DNA of 64,000 bases. Origin: Ischnura elegans. Its lineage: Eukaryota > Arthropoda > Insecta > Odonata > Coenagrionidae. A program made the position numbers and the translations under genes. Where the stretch lies: contig NC_060248.1 in the NCBI RefSeq assembly GCF_921293095.1, positions 74,221,243 through 74,285,242 on the forward strand, in the 5' to 3' direction. Positions 40,701-52,700 of the stretch are shown one piece after another (within the stretch, counting starts at the first letter, position 1; the number at the start of each line of letters is the position of its first letter). Below the pieces are notes generated by a model. The model ran no database searches and had not been told where the DNA came from. It was given only the letters and a program-made list of their open reading frames with translations.

Positions 40701-43700
40701 GTAACATCTGAATGGAAGTTGACGTGAGGAAATTAAACAGCAAATGGTGTGAACATCCTTGAGAAATCGATATATGTACAACTCAATCAACCTACGATGC
40801 GTGCATGCAGTGGCAGATCTAGGATAGGGACAAGTGGGGGGGACTAAGTGGAGGGTAAAATCCCAGCAGTAGTGGGGATCTGAACAAAATTTTCATTCTA
40901 TATGGTGTAAATTGAGTACCCAAGGGAAATATCCCCCCTCACCCCTCTCCGGATCTGGCACTCGATTGTAACATTCCAAAAGCGTGTTAAATAGGCCCTA
41001 ATTTTTGAGCTAATTTGTATTGCAATCCTTTCAAGTAGGTAAATATATCGGAAAATGTAACTAAATACTTTTGCACTAAGTGGCAACCTTCAAAAATTTT
41101 GATATTATCTAGTGTGTGTTTCGACCCAGCGGGGTAGAGAAGGGCTATAGCCCCCTTAACTCCCCCCTTAGTTCTGCCACTGAATGTGTGCATGCATCGT
41201 AGGTTGCATGATGTAATAATGAAAATTTGGTAATAACGATTCTTTTACTATAAGTTCGATTAGACTTTTTGTCGGGACCAAGAAGTCGCTTCGTAAAAAC
41301 AAGATCTTCATAATAAGGTTGGTCATATTGATGAGAGTCTACTGTATATAGAATCATGAAATAATAAGAGCTACACAACTAAAAAAACTGGAGGAACAGG
41401 GTTTAATCAGGGGAAGGAAAGAATTTTTCATTTGAAAAAAAATTTTGGCAAAGTATGTTACCAATGGGCATCTATGGTTTTAATCTCCTTGGTGATCCAT
41501 TGTAAAATTCTTTATTAAATTTTAGTTTTCAAATAACTTCTTCCTCCTCCAAGGGAATAATATTTTGTATGCATAAAATCATCATTCTATGTTTTGTGAT
41601 ACTCTGCTGTTTTTCATGCTACAAATAAATTACCCTGTCATAATTCTACACATGTATATTTATATGTATTCCTTAATTTCGCTGCCTTTGGAAATTAGGC
41701 TTCCAAATTGGTGTGAGTTATTTGATATTTGATGATGCTTTCGAAACATTTTTTTCATAATCATTGTACTACATTTCACTTTACAGTTTACGGGTGAATT
41801 TGGACATGGGAAAGGCTTTCTATTCCTGGAGTATACAGAGGGATCCTGAAATAGCTGGTACAGTTGTACGATCAACAACAATTCCTGAAGAATTAGGTCG
41901 AATATCTTATTTATTAACTGATAAGACAGGCACACTTACTCAGAATCAAATGATCTTGAAGAAGCTCCACCTAGGAACCGTTTCATATGGTGCTGAAACT
42001 TTCGATGAGGTAGGTTCTAATTACATATTTTTATCTCTTTTTTGTGAGTATCATATATTTATATTTGAATGATTCATAACAGACTAAAATACTACAGCCA
42101 AATAAAAATTAAGAAATATTTTGAATGATGGCTCGTATAAGTGCTAAAATAATTACAGTTGAACCCCAATCTATCGTTCCCGCATTCATCGTTTTCCCGC
42201 ATTCATCATTGGCCGTTCCTGGTCCCAAATAAAGTTCCATGTAGACAATGTAATTTTTTCCCGCATCTATCGTTCCCCAAAGTATCGTTTTCCTGCATTG
42301 ATCGTTCGAAGATCGCGGTCCCGAGGTATAATTTTCCTGCATCCATCGATTGATGAAAATGAGACAAAATGTATACATGTCATTCATGGCTAATTACAAC
42401 AGGCACATAGTTTGAATCTTCACCAGGAGATAGAACTACCATAGGGAGAAGCTGCATGGATCACCTATTAGCCCAAAAGTTGTCTAACAATTAATTTCTG
42501 CATTTGCTATTCTACTTTAATTAGAGTGAAATAATAGTAATGTGAATGTAATTTAAAAAAGAACAGGACCTAAGACGACGCATTTCTAACGTTATTTAAG
42601 CATTTTAAGCAAGGAAATATTAGGAAAAATAGGATGGTGATTTCTGGTGAAACTTGATGTCCTCGTAGCTGAGCTTCTCGGCATTTTTTCCGAAAACAGG
42701 ATATCAGGTTATCATCAGTTATCAATTTACAAGTTATACTATAAAGTCTCACGTTCTTGTCAGAGTTACTAATGAGTGGGTAAGTTGCCTTCTTATTAGG
42801 ACAACAAATTTCGTGGCGCAGTCATATGGCCATGCTTCACCCTCTGCCGTATGCTCTGCGTACACCTTTCCCGATAGCATCAGTTCCGAACTTCACCTCA
42901 CACGAGTGGTTCCGTACTTCCAGGGTGGGTTGACTTCAAACTAGCGAGTGTTTTCCGTGTGGGTGTAATAAAGTCAGGTTTATTTTTTATTAATTTTATT
43001 TTTATTCATCTTCAGAACATGGCCCTTCCGAAGAAACAAGTGAGAACTTTAAAAGATGGACTGGATATAATTGAAGATGAAGAAAAGAATCTGGGCTAGA
43101 AGCGTGTGAATATTACGGAATGCCTCGCTTTGTCCGCTAGCACATGACGGTATGGGTGGGGGTAGAGCGAGCTACCTGGTGAAAATAATAAGTGGGATGA
43201 AGCTGAGGATCAGGTGGGCATGCCGCTGACGATTAATGCAACATTGTTCACACTTTACTCATTGCCTCAATCATATGAAAAATATATTTATTAGAAAGGA
43301 ACATTTAAAAAAAAAAGACTATTTTTGGCCTTTGTGATCCATCTAACTAGCAATCACTGCACCAGTGAAAGCGGTTGTTTTAGGCAGAACGTGCACATCT
43401 CTCTCGTGAATACATTTACTGAAAATGGCTTTTGATGGATAAGAATTTTTACATCAGATAGAAATCCATAATAGCAGTGTAAATGCCGAGTGGAGTGCAA
43501 ACATTTTTTAGCGAGATGGCGTGTTCCTTTAGGATATTTGAAAGATAGTCGAATCTGCAATATGACCTAAGTGTTTTGATAAAGTACTAGTATTCTTGTA
43601 ATTAGCCAAAATCTTGTTTCGATCCTTTAGCGAATATCATAATTACACGCCAAAATCCCTCATTTCCTGGGACATAGGCAACCTAGCCTAACATTCCTGT

Positions 43701-46700
43701 ATTGATCGTTTTCCCACATTCATCGTGTTTTTCGTCCATCCCCCTGAAAAAGATAGATCGAGGTTCCACTGTTGTCATTTTCTTGACATCAAAGTAAACT
43801 ATGTATACTTTCTTAGTAGATCACTTTTACAGTATGTCATCTTATTGCATCTGATTGGTGGACAAATATGCTACTTCTGAATGAAGAGTCATCTAATTAG
43901 ATAAATGACGCCTTAGGGTGTTTTCTAACTTCATCTTTTGACGTTACTGAAGTCAGAGCTAGCTGTTTAGAAAACGTCTTTTGACTGTGGAGGAAAGGCA
44001 TCAAAGATTGAAGTTAAGTGCCTCCCATGCTAAACTTCATCATTCCGTTTTACTGTGTCGTTTATTTTTTCTTGGACTTAGCAGTGTGGGATACTGAACT
44101 TGTTTACCTTAAGTGAGGGATATCTTCTCTTAGATTTATAAAGCAGGGCCAAGCAAATACAATGGGGTAAGTCATTGAGAAAAATTTTATGTACATGTTC
44201 ATACATTTTTGTAAATTGCATCCATCAAACATATGGAGGAAGTATCTGCAAAGGGTATCAGACTTTGGAAAATCATGATTAATGGAGAGTGAAAATCAGT
44301 GGTCACTAGTGAGCCTAGGTTGATTGTTTCCTGGATATTTTTCCCTCTCCTGTTACAATCTAACTTGTTGATTTTTTCTTGATTCTATGTAAGTTGTGAT
44401 TGTTCAGAGACTGTGACGAATGAAGAACAGCGAGTATGCCAAATGTTACTGATATTAAGATGGGAGGTTTTATAATCATTTCAAATGCCCTTTAAATGTA
44501 GCACATTTTTAGGTTTTCTTTTGTAATGTCATTCTCAGGCTTATATTATGTATGTTTTATAAACTTTTGCACTCACTTTTTAGAACAACATAGCACTTTC
44601 CTGGAAAATCAATTGCCTTAATATTTCTCAGGTCTACCTCAGGGTAGCTCTATCTCTGTCGACATTTTAATATTACCAACCAATGAATCGACCCACCTAC
44701 CAATGAGGAGGTACATACTTGATTCCAAACAGAGACTATGCAAGATTGAGAAGTCAGCTCAATCATATCTTCTATATCAATCACTGATCTCTGCCATCAA
44801 AGGATTAAAACAGATTTAAAATTTATTTACAATATTCTAGACTCACACATTGATTGTCTTGATTTGCTGTCCTCTATTAATTTCAGAGTGCCTAGACGAG
44901 CCGTATGTACACATTCATTACTTCTTACACCTACCCCAAGTCTATCCCTCATTAAGTGCTCACTCCAACACCACCTTTACTGCCTGCTCAATTCATTGCC
45001 AGATAATATTGATCCGTTTTTTTCTGTCCTTAAACTCATTTGTCAATCTCGCCTTGTCCCATTCACCGGCGGATAAATAAACCTCCTCGTACACCTCCCT
45101 TTCCACTTGTCTTTTATTTTTGTTCTTTACCATCTTTTGCCTGTTCTTTTTTTTCATTGTTTGCGTTTAAATTTCATGTTTGTTACTGCACCACTGTAAA
45201 TTGGCAGAAATGCTGTATGTGTGCAACCGCTTGAATAAATAAATAGCAAATAAATCTTGAGGATAATTACCAAGTCAGTAATTGAAACATCAACGGAAAT
45301 GAAATTACCCACCCCATGGGAGGCCTGGGAAAAGTTCACACAGCAAAATATTTGTTTTTGTAAATCATACTGTTTTGGGCATTCATTAATGTCCATTAGC
45401 TTTTTGTTTTTGTAATATATTTTTTAATTCTTCTAGGTGGCTGCCCATCTCAAAACAGCTCATTCCCAAACCCAAACCCTACAGACACCTGAAGGTGGTG
45501 GGGCAACCACACCATCCCCTCTTCGACTGACAACTGGAAGTACAACACCAGCGTCTATATCCATCAGCTCAGCAGCCACATCTGCCAAGTTGCGGCGATC
45601 TGAAGTTACTCGTGTCCAGGTTAGTTCCTTTTGGGAAATATAGTGTAATGTCATTTCTGTAACATTTTTGAAATTCAGGAGAATAAAGAACAAATGGTAA
45701 ACTTCCGCGCTATTTTATTTAAATGAACATCTACCTGGTTTCGACACGTAGTGTCATGATTAAGGTACAAATTGGCCTTCCTCAGTTCTATAATGTTTTT
45801 TTTGGCAGAAATGCTGTATGTGTGCAACTGTACTCTCTTAATATAATTGTTTTTTTTTATCCTCATGTCTGAAAGATTTCCTTGTAAGAGAGGAAAAATA
45901 TGTATAAAGTCTTTTTGGCAGTAAGAACCTAAATTTTCTCCTGAATGTTTTATATGGTAATAAGGGTTTGTTTGTGTGTATTCTTACAGGAAGCTGTTAA
46001 AGCAGTGGCATTATGTCATGATGTGACCCCAGTGTATGCACCTTGCACCTAATTTGTACCTTGATAATGACACTATGTGTTAATTAAATAAAATAGTGTG
46101 AAAGTTTACCATTCTTTCTTTATTCTCATGGAGATGAAACATATCTACCAAGTATCGCCGGACACTTACTTAAATTTTTGAAATTGTTTTTTTATACAGT
46201 GAAAATTCATTGTATATATTATTAAATATTTCAGGATCTTGTTTCTGGCATAGTTGATGCTCAGATGTTCTCTTATTGATACGTTCATTTCTAAGACTTT
46301 ATTTTTCAAATCATTAAGAGTCTACCATATTGGTGTTACTTATGGTTTCAGAGACTTAAGTCTTACTTATAATTTCAGAAAAAAATGTACTGAGCGTAGA
46401 AATTGAGGAGTATTATTATTATGAAATTCTGTAATCTCTTAGTATAATTGATTTTTTATCCTCATGTCTGAAAGATTTCTTTGTAATAGAGGAAAAATAT
46501 GTATCAAGTCTTTTTGGGAGTAAGAACCTAAATTTTCTCCTGAATGTTTTATATGGTAATAAGAGTTTGTTTGTGTGTATTCTTATAGGAAGCTGTTAAA
46601 GCAGTGGCATTATGTCATAATGTGACCCCAGTGTATGAAGGTCACAGTGGAAGTATGGGAGATGGGGAATCCACGGAAGAAAGTCATGAAACTGAGGCTG

Positions 46701-49700
46701 ATCAACATTCAAGGCAGAACGTGGTGTACCAGGCATCAAGTCCAGATGAGGTATATTTTGTGAACGTTATGGAACTTGGGAAAATCTTGTGGACTTTCAA
46801 ACATATGCTTGATAATGCATACTGTGTACGTTATGTACGTTATTATGTACGTTAAACATGCTAATACATGAGTGTTTTATGCACGTCAGATCTTTTAAGC
46901 AAGGGGTTTGTGTGCTCTATTATAATTTTGGGGAATTATTTTTTTATGGTAATCTTAATCAAATTCATGTTATTTGTTTCCTATATTTATAATCACTTAG
47001 CTAGATAATGCTTCAAAATCTGAAATGCTTGAAAGCGATTAGTATACTTGGCAAAATGGGAAAAATTAGCATTCCCTGACTCAGGGCATATTCATGATAC
47101 ATAAAATTACACAAATGGTAATTTCCACACTTTTAACACGTTGCCTACGGATGGCAAGAATTCTCGTCATTTTTTTTCCGAACGTTCCGGACGGATGACG
47201 AAGATTCTCGTCATTTAGGCGCGTCAACCTAAACAATTTTAAAGCGTACAATACGTATTCGTTAGTGCGTTTTCAGTTGTTGTTCGCTGTTCATGATGAT
47301 TTGATACATTATAACGTTTGATTGGGTAAAGTTATATTCTAAACATTAGCTTTTTAACCATGTTTAAACCAAAGGCATTACGCCCTAATAGGCACATATG
47401 TCAAGGATCGGCGTTCCTAGGAATTTAAATATCCCGGTACGCAACGTGTTAATAGAAAACTCAAAAACCGGCCATGGTTTTAACACATTGTGTCATTTCT
47501 TGACAGTGACAAGAAATGACACAGTGTGTTGAAACCATGGTCGGTTGTTGAGTTTTGTATTAAAAGTGTGGAAATTACCATTTGTGTTATTTAATCATGG
47601 ATAAATCAAACTTCCACAAAATCGAACCTGAAACGATTTTATATGTCAGGGTGCATTGTTTGTTGCTTCCTTATGTGATTCATTATGATATGCATCTGAA
47701 AGTAATGATTATTTAATTTTGAAGGTTGCATTGGTTAAGTGGACAGAAGAGGTTGGTCTAGCCTTGGTTCGACGGGATTTGGTGAGCATGCATCTTAGGA
47801 CTCCAACAGGGGCTGTGTTGTCCTATACTATTTTACAAATTTTTCCATTTACTTCAGAGACAAAGCGAATGGGAGTTATTGTCAAGGTTGGTATATTCCT
47901 CTTTGTAAATGTGGTTACTGATATTTTTGTTGTTAAACAATGGTTGAATCCCAAATATTTATGATTTGAATGAGTGATACTTGAAAATTTTCAATTTTAA
48001 TATAGAGGAGCTGTTTTTTGATCAGTTCTATGTTGTTACAAACTTGATCCCAATCTTTTATTTTTATTCCATTATTTCTAATGCAGTCGATTCAAACAAC
48101 CAATTTTCTCCCAAGCCTGCTAGTAAGCTACAAACCAGAAAATCATTCAACTAGTAACTCTCTTCCACCCTCAACTAATCACATACTTTATTTTTGTTTC
48201 TCATTGCTACTGGAATCACACTGACAAACATTAACCTTACCTTGAATGATATATTCTTATGCATTTCCTGAAAGTGAAAATTCTCATAAATTACAGGAGG
48301 AGCAAAGTGGAGAAATAGTTTTTTACCTTAAGGGTGCTGATGTTGTCATGTCAGGAATTGTGCAGTATAATGACTGGCTTGAAGAAGAATGTGATAATAT
48401 GGCACGAGAAGGATTCAGAACCCTTGTTGTTGCCAAGAAGTCCCTTACAGAAGAGCAGTATTTGGACTTTGAAGTAAGTTATGTGTTTCTTTTTAAATTA
48501 CAAGCTTTTAAAGTGAAATTATAATCTTTTATGGTCTATTAAAATTAAAATACTGCTTGCAGACTCGCTACAATGCTGCAAGAATGAGCGTTTCAGATAG
48601 GGGTGTTAGAGTTGCAGCTGTTGTTGAAAGCTTGGAGCGAGAGATGGAACTTCTTTGTGTTACTGGTGTTGAAGATCGACTACAGGAAGGAGTGCGTCCT
48701 ACACTTGAGGTTCTAAGGAATGCTGGGATAAAGGTAATTATTGAGATCCATTTGCTTTTAATGAGACATCTTTTGCAAAGTGCAAAAACCAGGTTTGAAA
48801 CCTTAGTTTAAACTGAGTCCAGTTGGGTAGAGGTTAGTCTCTACTCTCAGAGGGACAAGAAGCAGTTGTAGCAGTGGGCTAATCAGGCTTGGTGAAATGA
48901 GGTACAAGGATTATATGTGATAATGTTCAGAAATAGCTGAATTTCGTGTTTCAAAACAAATGGGACAAGGTATGGCATTGGAAGACTAGGTAAAAATTCA
49001 CTTTTTTATTGTGTGGTTTATTGGTAAAGTTGAAATATACATGAATTATTTTATAGAACATGGTGATTTACTGGCCTTACCCAAAGTCGAGACAACTAAG
49101 GTTAATGTGTTGTATCTTAGTAACAACTTGATCATTTGTAATGGAATAAACTGAAAATGTTAGAAAAAATATTTTTACATTTCCTCAATATTTTTTTAGC
49201 AACTCATCATAGCGTGAACAAATTTTTACTCGGCCTTGTATGAAAAATTTATTGTTTTTAATGCTCTAAAACCAGTATTTACCTCAGAATTGAATCCGTT
49301 TTTTTTGTCTAGGACCTTTCATGCCCATGAGAGCCCATGTGATGGAATGACAGAATCTTTTAATTATGAATGCCAGACGAGAACCTTTTAATAATTTTTC
49401 TATCACCAAAGGTTGTTGTTAAAGAAAACTCTGCTATTCTTTTTACACATTATAAAACCGACAGGAAATTTAAAATTGCTGACTTTTTAATGCTGAATCT
49501 ACTTTTAATCATCTACCCCATGAAGCTTAAATAAATTGGGCAATGGATCAGATGTGTACATTGGCTAAGCGCTTAACTGCATTCTTGTGGTCCATTTCAT
49601 TAATTCTTCCAATTTTCAGCCATAAATTATGTCAAAATTTGATTCTTGCAACTGGCTCCGAAAGGTGAATGGTTATTTAGCTGCCTCATTTATACACATT

Positions 49701-52700
49701 GATTTTCCTATTGAAAATCCTATTGTGCATCCCAAAAATCAAATTCTTGAATAGTAATCAGTTACCTGAGTTGCATATTGTTTGAATTCAGTTTTTAGCT
49801 AGATTCATGCGTATTGGTCTCTCCTTGATTTTTCCTCTTCATTATTTTTCAAGATTTGGATGCTGACAGGTGATAAATTGGAAACTGCCACTTGCATTGC
49901 AAAAAGCTCTCGCTTGGTCTCCAGAACACAGGGGATGCATATATTCCGGCCTGTTACAACTCGCACAGATGCCCATTTGGAGCTGAACGCTTTTCGTAAA
50001 AAGCAAGACTGTGCTCTGGTTATCACTGGTGATTCTCTGGAGGTAAAGTATACTAATTATTATAAAGTGATGTGAGCTTAATTATTATGTCAAAAATATT
50101 CATTCACTCTGTTGGTATTCCACTGAATTACTTCACCCTCCATCATGTTTATGTGTATACAATATATTTATGTACAGTTTGAACTAGAGGAAGATCAGTC
50201 TATCAGTGATGGAGTGGCCGTGATTAGCTCAAAAACTTCTTTCAGTCTTCATAAATTTTTAGAGAATTTAGGAACCTTGGAGAGAAAAATTGAAGAAAAA
50301 GTCCTTCAAAGAGCACCTAGAGATAAACTTGGAGCATATAAATCTGTACACAGGGACGAAGAATACCAGGGAACCAAAGGAACTTGCTTGGGAAGGAAAA
50401 ACATGGGAGCATGCAGTATACCAATCTTTTCATTACAGTTCTAAGCAATTAATGTAGGAACCTTGAGATTACAGCAGTTCAGCGGCATCATATGATATTC
50501 ATGACAAAGGTCATTGGAAGATTGTCCTCCTTTTATTGTACTATGGTGCATGTTTACCATCCACAATCGTAAGGCTTGGGAAAAATGATGTCACAACGAA
50601 GATTCTTTCCATTAGGGAGGTAATCCACGGACAAAAAATGTCCATTTAATCAAATTTGCATAAAATTAAATTAATTGTAATAGCAATGGATTATGAAAAT
50701 ATGTGTTAAGTGAATGTTATTTTTACTGTGAGAATGGGGCTGTAGAAATTGCGGAAGTTTGGGCCCCCCAGCCACGTGTATTTTTTTAGAGATGTATTGT
50801 ATAGTGTTAACTCACCAACCATTGATGTAAAATCATCCATTGTATCTGGTTGTTTTAATAGGTTTGCTTGAGGTACTACGAACAGGAGCTGATGGAGCTG
50901 GCATGTGCAAGCCCAGGTGTTGTCTGCTGCCGTTGCTCACCCACTCAGAAGGCCCAGGTGGCTAGGCTAGTGAGGGCACGTGCCCATGGTGGTGGCTGGT
51001 CTCCCGGAGGGGGTGGCGTAAGTGTATCTGGGGCAAATGGCGAAGGCGGAGTGAGCAGCGGCGGTGGCAGTCGAAGTGGTGGCGGTCGATGGAGAGGAGC
51101 CGTGGCTGCTGTTGGGGATGGAGGCAATGATGTCAGCATGATTCAAGCGGCAGATGCTGGCATTGGAATAGCTGGGTCTGAGGGACGCCAAGCATCCCTG
51201 GCTGCAGATTTTTCTGTGACCCAGTTTCGCTACTTGGCCCGTCTTATGTTGGTTCATGGTCGTCGTAGTTACAAACGTTCGGCATCCCTTGGCCAGTTTG
51301 TAATCCATAGGGGTCTAGTCATTTCCACCATGCAAGCAGTTTTTTCATCAGTCTTCTATTTTTCATCAGTTGCCCTGTATCAAGGTTTCCTTATGGTTGG
51401 GTATGTTTCCCTTGATTGTGTCTATTTGCATTGTTGTTAATTTGTTTTTCTGAATGTGTAGAAATATTAACTTGTAAAAGCAATACAAATACATTCATAA
51501 GGTAAGGAGGAAAGGGATAGATACTTATGGTTGAAATAGGATGTGGACAACAGTGCTGTAGTTAAATGCGATGGTGGTTGGCGTAACATGGTGAAACTCC
51601 TTCATGATGCACAAAGGTTAAGAAAAGACTTAGCTGTTTCACAAAATAAAATATATTTGCGACCGGTTTCGATACAGCGTATCATCATCTGGCAATTACA
51701 AGTATCAGTACATAGAATTTATACCCTTGAAGGCGTTAGAGGGGTGGTAGAGTGGAGGTGGAGAAAGGGGGGAACTTTGGAGTACCCATTATTGGATGCA
51801 ATTAGTTTGATTGTGTTTAGCTTCTTCATCCTGTATAATTCAACAATGGAATCAATCATAATCTGTGAAGCATACAATGTATTGCTGATAGTTTGTGAGA
51901 GAAGTGGTGTCGTGAATTGCGGTGTATTATTTGGTGGAGGGGTAAGGGAAGGGAAGGTAGGTTTGGGAAGTACGTCGCTGATGGGTCACTGCACGGGGTA
52001 GACGAGGGTTGGTGTATGATGACGAAATACGGGGAGGGGTGTTATGGAGTGGTGAGTGTCATCCGTAATGGTTTCTCAGAAAAAAACATTGAAAAGGGGT
52101 GAATGGTGAGAATACAACTGCTCATTAACTAATGTTATGTTGGGTGAGGTTTGGCCCACTAAAATTTCCAACTGCTCGAGTGCGTCAAGCCTTGGGCCGT
52201 TGTTTTCTTTATGTAGGATTATCGGTTCGAAATCGCTTGTGTGGTCGGAATCCAAGAGGTGTTTGGCAAAGTGTGAGGTTTCTTTGTTGTTAATAAAACA
52301 TGAACGATGTTCCTTGGCCCGGATGTTGAAATTCCGTCCAGTTTTTCCTATGTAACAGGAATTGCAGTCATTGCAACGGAGATTATATACTCCGCTGTGT
52401 TCTCCGGCACTAATTTTGTCCTCGCACTCAACCTTATTTACACAGATAGAGGGAAAGATGATGACACGAAATGGCGTAGAATCCCCTATCTCGTTCGTAT
52501 ATCCAACAAAACTGGAAAATTACTACCTAAAGATCAAGTGAAGGCTGCCTTCTACAGTAGAAATACACTTGGCAAACTGTTGGGCAGTGCCAAGGACAAA
52601 ATTAGTAGAAGCTAAACACAATCAAACTAATTGCATCCAATAATGGGTACTCCAAAGTTCCCCCCTTTCTCCACCTCCACTCTACCACCCCTCTAACGCC

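Follow-up and report, generated by a model that had tools for sequence, protein, structure and literature searches.

A Penelope-like insertion enclosing a copy of a neighbouring exon in an ATP9-type gene of Ischnura elegans

The insertion and its host gene

The window, by which we mean the whole stretch of DNA analysed, covers 64,000 nucleotides of the 1.72-Gb genome of Ischnura elegans (NC_060248.1:74221243-74285242) and contains an ATP9-type P4-ATPase gene. Exons 9-12 of this gene match the ATPase IIA (ATP9A-type) structure 9vdk (E 2.8e-91) as well as yeast NEO1 (E 3.7e-55). Intron 8 hosts an element that spans positions 45676-46173. A preliminary description had placed this element at 45681-46127, which gives its location correctly, but the element is wider than that and is flanked by a 12-base repeat. 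The features of the region are as follows, with PLE for Penelope-like element and all positions numbered within the window.

45437-45619, + strand: exon 8 of the ATP9-type gene, from reading frame and splice sites (start set by eye from the acceptor ttctag)
45664-45675, + strand: left target-site duplication, ATTTTTGAAATT, a 12-nt exact match to 46174-46185
45676-45792, - strand: left arm, a tail-less PLE pLTR/3' end in antisense, from matches to PLE copies
45793-45801, + strand: filler of 9 nt, outside the PLE matches
45802-45828, + strand: copy of 27 nt of intron 7 (45201-45227), an exact 27-mer
45828-46038, + strand: copy of the intron 8/exon 9 junction, from alignment, with its acceptor at 45981-45989 and the decoy coding start at 45990
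45990-46052, + strand: decoy reading frame of 20 codons and TAA, in frame with exon 8
46039-46049, + strand: filler of 11 nt from the exon copy to the right arm, read from the sequence
46050-46129, + strand: right arm, a PLE pLTR/3' end in sense orientation, shortened by a deletion of about 18-20 nt and containing AATAAA at 46087-46092
46130-46173, + strand: PLE 'tail' extension, confined to the right side and common to the tail-bearing arms of other copies (inner edge approximate)
46174-46185, + strand: right target-site duplication, ATTTTTGAAATT, an exact match to 45664-45675
46589-46750, + strand: true exon 9, the first 49 bases of which lie inside the donor of the copy

Read from left to right, the insertion consists of the left arm, the 9-nt filler, the intron 7 patch, the exon copy, the 11-nt filler and the right arm. 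The two patches overlap by one base and both lie in the orientation of the gene. The inverted match between the arms comprises 45664-45722/46084-46142 and 45744-45773/46051-46080. In a comparison of 36 loci, the left arm was found to begin at GAATAAAG or a few bases earlier, while the right arm runs past 46127 to an end, CGCCGGACACTTACTTA, that is shared with one side of other copies. As a control for the target-site duplication, we compared random pairs of 35-mers drawn from positions 41001-52000, and these shared a 12-mer in 8 of 20,000 trials.

Penelope-like identity of the arms

The element is an inverted-pLTR insertion of a GIY-YIG Penelope-like retrotransposon, an assignment made at the level of the family, and the window copy has no coding region. 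The assignment rests on three features: the arm homologues follow RT/GIY-YIG coding sequences, the tail is one-sided and the target-site duplication is 12 bases long. A whole-genome DNA search with the element yielded at least 90 matches and located the arms at dozens of places, both counts being lower bounds since scoring covered the best 40 of 777 candidates. The left arm is about 88% identical to the best genomic copies and 85-86% identical to the 3' ends of the PLE copies L050 and L053.

In 7 of the 16 larger loci (L045, L050, L053, L068, L069, L070 and L074), an arm follows an RT/GIY-YIG coding match and is in line with it; four of these (L068, L069, L070 and L074) had been picked for their coding match. 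For the loci picked for their arms alone, the coding was in line with the arm in 3 of 12 cases (L045, L050 and L053). One further locus, L049, contains a different PLE-like frame that is out of line with its arm, and the coding match is absent from the other 8 of the 16 larger arm loci. With the L053 frame as the only query, no endonuclease was matched in Pfam; a related frame at L062, 60% identical to that of L053, matched RVT_1 (7.7e-11) and GIY-YIG (5.9e-5), both past the Pfam cut-offs. In the longer copy L074, the coding region is situated between inverted arms, with the tail on one arm and a shared flank of 13 bases.

We also examined inverted pairs of arms elsewhere in the genome. For this analysis, we selected 19 pairs of simple structure (L022, L026, L028, L031, L033, L035-L039, L074 and L076-L083), set aside the complex locus L075 and included the window copy to give 20 pairs. 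By reading, 19 of the 20 pairs carried the tail on exactly one arm, the exception being L031, which has no complete tail. With the edges of L022, L031, L036 and L077 adjusted by hand for the flank and filling comparisons, the two flanks shared at least 8 bases in 11 of the 20 pairs, the window included, as compared to 5 of 380 control pairs of mismatched flanks; the other 9 of the 20 pairs remained below 8 shared bases. Words of at least 10 bases were shared by the flanks of 8 of the 20 pairs and by none of the 380 mismatched ones.

These characteristics are those of known PLEs, in which the pLTRs are often inverted, one of them carries a tail of about 31 bp and the target-site duplications are 8-10 bases long (PMC3846280). 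In canonical PLEs in general, the tail is optional and measures 30-40 bp at one end, and the length of the target-site duplication varies. A purified PLE enzyme cleaves and extends both strands in vitro and begins reverse transcription at two nearby sites on the RNA, the spacing of which corresponds to the tail (PMC11167929). Like Pen2a of Adineta vaga (PMC3846280) and Poseidon of Anolis (PMC11167929), the window copy has RT/GIY-YIG relatives, inverted pLTRs, a one-sided tail and a short target-site duplication, the latter being 12 bases as compared to the 8-10 bases of the A. vaga cases. Unlike these elements, it has no coding region, and no hammerhead was found here. An Rfam scan of 10 loci gave 22 matches with E values no higher than 10, all below the gathering scores and none of them a hammerhead ribozyme, although the Rfam models may miss reduced forms of the motif. 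The hammerhead has been reported in PLEs and is not treated here as defining them.

The preliminary description had instead taken the insertion for a foldback DNA element. A foldback transposon of the FB/Galileo type, or a Pack-TIR, that had captured the exon would account for a captured segment between long inverted arms. The long terminal inverted repeats of FB/Galileo DNA transposons are symmetric. In the window copy the arms are asymmetric, with the tail on a single side, and across the copies the flank repeats are 8 to 13 bases long. The arm homologues, moreover, are the 3' ends of RT/GIY-YIG elements, and with these observations combined an origin from a DNA transposon is highly improbable.

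A filling that matches the same gene

The segment between the arms contains a copy of the intron 8/exon 9 junction, as had been claimed, and the copy is about 95% identical to its source. The two sequences form a direct repeat (45853-46038/46452-46637) with 96% identity over 186 nt, and in a local gapped alignment of the whole copy (45828-46038) with the donor (46429-46637), 10 of the 209 aligned positions were mismatched and one 2-nt insertion was present. A-to-G differences made up only 2 of the 10 changes, no excess by eye, and RNA editing was rejected as the cause of the differences. Among the best 40 of 777 candidates from a genome-wide DNA search (1.72 Gb), the only places that matched the exon copy were its own position and the donor. 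This supports the earlier suggestion that a mobile element carries an exon copied nearby from the gene that hosts it.

The 27-mer of intron 7 occurs exactly at five places in the genome: the donor, the insert and three others. Its source belongs to the 3' end of a repeat that is dispersed in the genome (616 candidates, of which 40 were scored), and a non-local donor is therefore possible, although the copy in intron 7, which starts 601 bases upstream of the insert patch, would be the simplest source. Relative to the point of insertion, the putative donors are located about 250 bases downstream (exon copy) and 450-475 bases upstream (27-mer).

No host filling was detected in any of the 19 other inverted pairs, where the longest run outside the PLE matches is at most 17 bases, as compared to 255 bases in the window copy. 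Near-identical local repeats could also arise as artefacts or haplotype duplications, and the assembly is a diploid, incompletely phased long-read assembly (PMC9975421). We consider this explanation barely credible here since the two copies lie between unrelated flanks and the insert has arms and a target-site duplication at its edges.

Timing of the copying

Our preferred reading, which we hold to be probable though well short of certain, is that a PLE inserted into intron 8 as an inverted pLTR pair, that local patches were added subsequently, most likely by the repair of a break, and that the decoy exon is a by-product or a silent scar. Judging from the anatomy, a non-autonomous GIY-YIG PLE copy would have entered the intron as an inverted pair, an event to which the 12-base target-site duplication and the tail on the right side only can be attributed. 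The match to the donors suggests that the centre of the pair was copied from the same gene, with 209 bases from the intron 8/exon 9 region and 27 bases from intron 7. The copying was probably due to synthesis-dependent strand annealing during the repair of a break at the palindrome, after the insertion. Some observations fit less well with this reading: the window copy has no coding region, a hammerhead was not found and the flanks of 9 of the 20 pairs have fewer than 8 bases in common.

Alternatively, the host sequences were captured during the insertion itself. According to this scenario, the PLE enzyme cut both strands and primed a cDNA on each, after which the right-hand cDNA jumped from the PLE RNA to nascent, unspliced ATP9 pre-mRNA, copied exon 9 and intron 8 and then intron 7, and was joined to the left-hand cDNA. 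Both patches are in sense and are ordered as expected from a single cDNA reading a pre-mRNA towards its 5' end; their shared orientation, which suits the copying of nascent pre-mRNA, thus also counts against later repair. The scenario gains further support from the ability of the purified PLE enzyme to cleave and extend both strands and to start at two nearby sites on the RNA (PMC11167929), and from the intron-containing host genes that PLEs have carried between pLTRs (PMC3846280). Against it, host filling was seen in 0 of 19 other inverted pairs, the arms look older than the patch, if only weakly so, and a DNA template accounts for the patches equally well. We regard capture at insertion as possible but doubtful.

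To compare ages, we counted the differences between the two arms, which amounted to 11 of 70 aligned positions, or 9 of 68 when two columns beside the deletion were left out; no variant relative to the majority was common to both arms. These proportions are higher than the 10 of 209 between the copy and its donor (Fisher p 0.007 and 0.025, respectively), while a test against only the intron part of the copy (9 of 160) gave p 0.06. The excess of arm differences mildly favours later repair. The age argument is void if the arms were derived from different RNAs. Furthermore, gene conversion could have kept the copy and the donor alike and produced the same picture. In other pairs, the arms differed by 5.8-8.0% in the five that were nearly fully aligned (L028, L038, L074, L080 and L083); such values are valid only for arms aligned over their whole length, as the alignment goes wrong in the middle of pairs whose arms are short. 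Taken together, break repair is slightly preferred over template jumping by the reverse transcriptase.

The putative decoy terminal exon

All of the signals named in the preliminary description, i.e. the acceptor, the 20 in-frame codons, the TAA at 46050-46052 and the AATAAA at 46087-46092, were recovered at the positions given there. Joining the end of exon 8 at 45619 to 45990 yields an open frame in the correct phase, and the stop codon lies at the junction with the right arm. According to the anatomy, the decoy acceptor, the upstream intron sequence and the frame would have arrived with the patch, and the AATAAA with the arm.

The decoy acceptor is TTCTTACAG (45981-45989) and the true acceptor is TTCTTATAG (46580-46588); the two differ by a C/T change at position -3 and by one base further upstream. 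C is preferred to T at position -3 of acceptors, and acceptors elsewhere in the ATP9-type gene end in TAG, AAG and CAG. The proposal that the decoy acceptor is the stronger of the two therefore holds in so far as it has CAG in place of TAG, but the gain consists of that single change at -3.

Use of these signals would mean that exon 8 is spliced to 45990 and that the message is cleaved near 46100-46130, giving a putative terminal exon and either a truncated ATPase or a dead-end message. The catalytic DKTGTLT motif is located at 41920, upstream of the decoy, so a truncated product would retain the motif and lose later parts of the enzyme. The components required are all there, namely the frame, a complete acceptor with CAG for TAG, the stop, the AATAAA and a U-rich stretch at 46112-46127, and the decoy acceptor is closer to exon 8 than the true one. 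This reading concerns use rather than origin and is compatible with either of the two origins considered above. We nevertheless judge it unlikely, for the following reasons.

First, the polyadenylation signal is neither rare nor particular to this copy. It is a generic feature of the family, as 47 of the 70 distinct arm copies have it in sense, and this, along with the position of the stop at the arm junction, speaks against the proposal that a stop and a polyadenylation signal were added by the element for gene control. By chance alone AATAAA is frequent, with 87 occurrences on the + strand of the 64-kb window, so that one near a stop codon is weak evidence on its own.

Second, the AATAAA is situated inside the predicted stem between the arms. 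In silico, the RNA of 45660-46171 folds with a minimum free energy of -154 kcal/mol (z -7.9), and none of 100 shuffled sequences was as stable. In the intron context the predicted probability of the AATAAA being unpaired was 0.00, as compared to 0.29 when the left arm was omitted. The accessibility of the decoy acceptor was similarly predicted at 0.33 with the left arm and 0.29 without it, and that of the true acceptor at 0.40. These values take no account of proteins or of co-transcriptional kinetics. The arms are thus predicted to pair in the pre-mRNA, hiding the AATAAA and looping out the acceptor, and because of this pairing exon 8 would be expected to be spliced mainly to the true exon 9. 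A hairpin around AAUAAA represses polyadenylation in HIV-1 (PMC2645353), and opposed repeats within an intron alter the splicing of a downstream exon (PMC2533698).

Third, judging from the divergence of about 5% between copy and donor, the insertion has probably long been present and tolerated, which makes strong harm less likely.

Use of the copy as a cassette rather than a terminal exon was rejected, as no usable 5' splice site follows the decoy. Of the GT dinucleotides in 45993-46600, the one at 46556, 33 bases before the true acceptor, is alone in matching at least 4 of 7 donor positions; by the same rule, three true donors of the ATP9-type gene score 4 to 6 of 7 (counted by hand). Overall, the buried AATAAA as predicted by folding, the lack of a good 5' splice site and the one-base gain at the acceptor weaken the case for a regulatory use of the decoy. 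A combined scenario, in which a PLE reverse-transcribed nascent pre-mRNA while landing and thereby created in one step a decoy terminal exon with a pLTR poly(A) signal, the use of which is gated by pairing and unpairing of the arms, is more unlikely still.

Relation to known cases of gene capture

Both the capture of host genes by Penelope elements and the capture of neighbouring exons by repair are known already, and at this locus the two are joined. A close precedent is the mobilisation of an NRPS gene of Adineta vaga by Penelope (PMC3846280). It likewise consists of intron-containing host sequence framed by pLTRs and a target-site duplication; there an entire gene was copied to a new place, whereas here a fragment came from the same gene that received the insertion.

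In vertebrates, repair is known to produce duplications of similar size and proximity, exons and splice sites among them (PMC2671141). As in those cases, the locus has a short and closely linked copy within a repeat, with a splice site and an exon, and the inserts match sequences nearby on the same chromosome. Those cases are from vertebrates, while ours is from an insect and involves a PLE palindrome and two patches. The Pack-TIRs of animals (PMC8277862) also show gap-filling capture of host sequence between inverted arms, in DNA transposons rather than in a retroelement. In LINE-1 chimeric insertions, retroelement insertions are joined to pieces of host transcripts; these belong to another element class, and the abstract of PMC13174262 does not describe the donors as the gene that was hit. 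We found no report of the locus in the literature on capture by PLEs, foldbacks or retroelements, a survey that did not extend to the name of the gene.

In this insect locus, the palindrome of a retroelement encloses a copy of a neighbouring exon together with its splice site. If the decoy is used, PLE insertions would provide a route to premature terminal exons; if it is not, the locus shows how inverted arms could mask such accidents.

Related elements nearby and elsewhere in the genome

Several other repeats were observed in the course of the analysis. In intron 7, positions 45160-45262 correspond to the 3' end of a dispersed repeat with a terminus of the AATAAATAAATA type, for which a first look gave 616 candidates. 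Intron 9 contains a second inverted-arm element at 47101-47640, which belongs to a related and abundant family with 3007 candidates at first look. For this family, 23 inverted pairs were identified among 40 scored places, with gaps between the arms of at most about 110 bases by our own count. None of the partner matches extends past position 100 of the 134-base query, as though the tail were missing. Within the left arm of the intron 9 element, the stretch at 47133-47452 has inverted ends, TTAACACGTTGC...GCAACGTGTTAA, and resembles a TTAA-bounded MITE; it also contains an imperfect direct repeat of 35 bases (47138-47172/47182-47216).

Outside the window, L075 (G000:C7:86113900-86115400) is a complex locus with an inverted pair of arms followed by short inverted and repeated copies of the flank and a third arm. 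At G000:C9:114210997-114219828, four PLE endonuclease matches share one orientation and follow each other at intervals of exactly 2,777 bases, a pattern like that of a tandem PLE array. On chromosome 13, where L045 is located (G000:C13:12920500-12929500), same-strand pairs of PLE arms about 5.4 kb apart were seen at 10.84, 11.68 and 12.92 Mb, which suggests an amplified larger unit.
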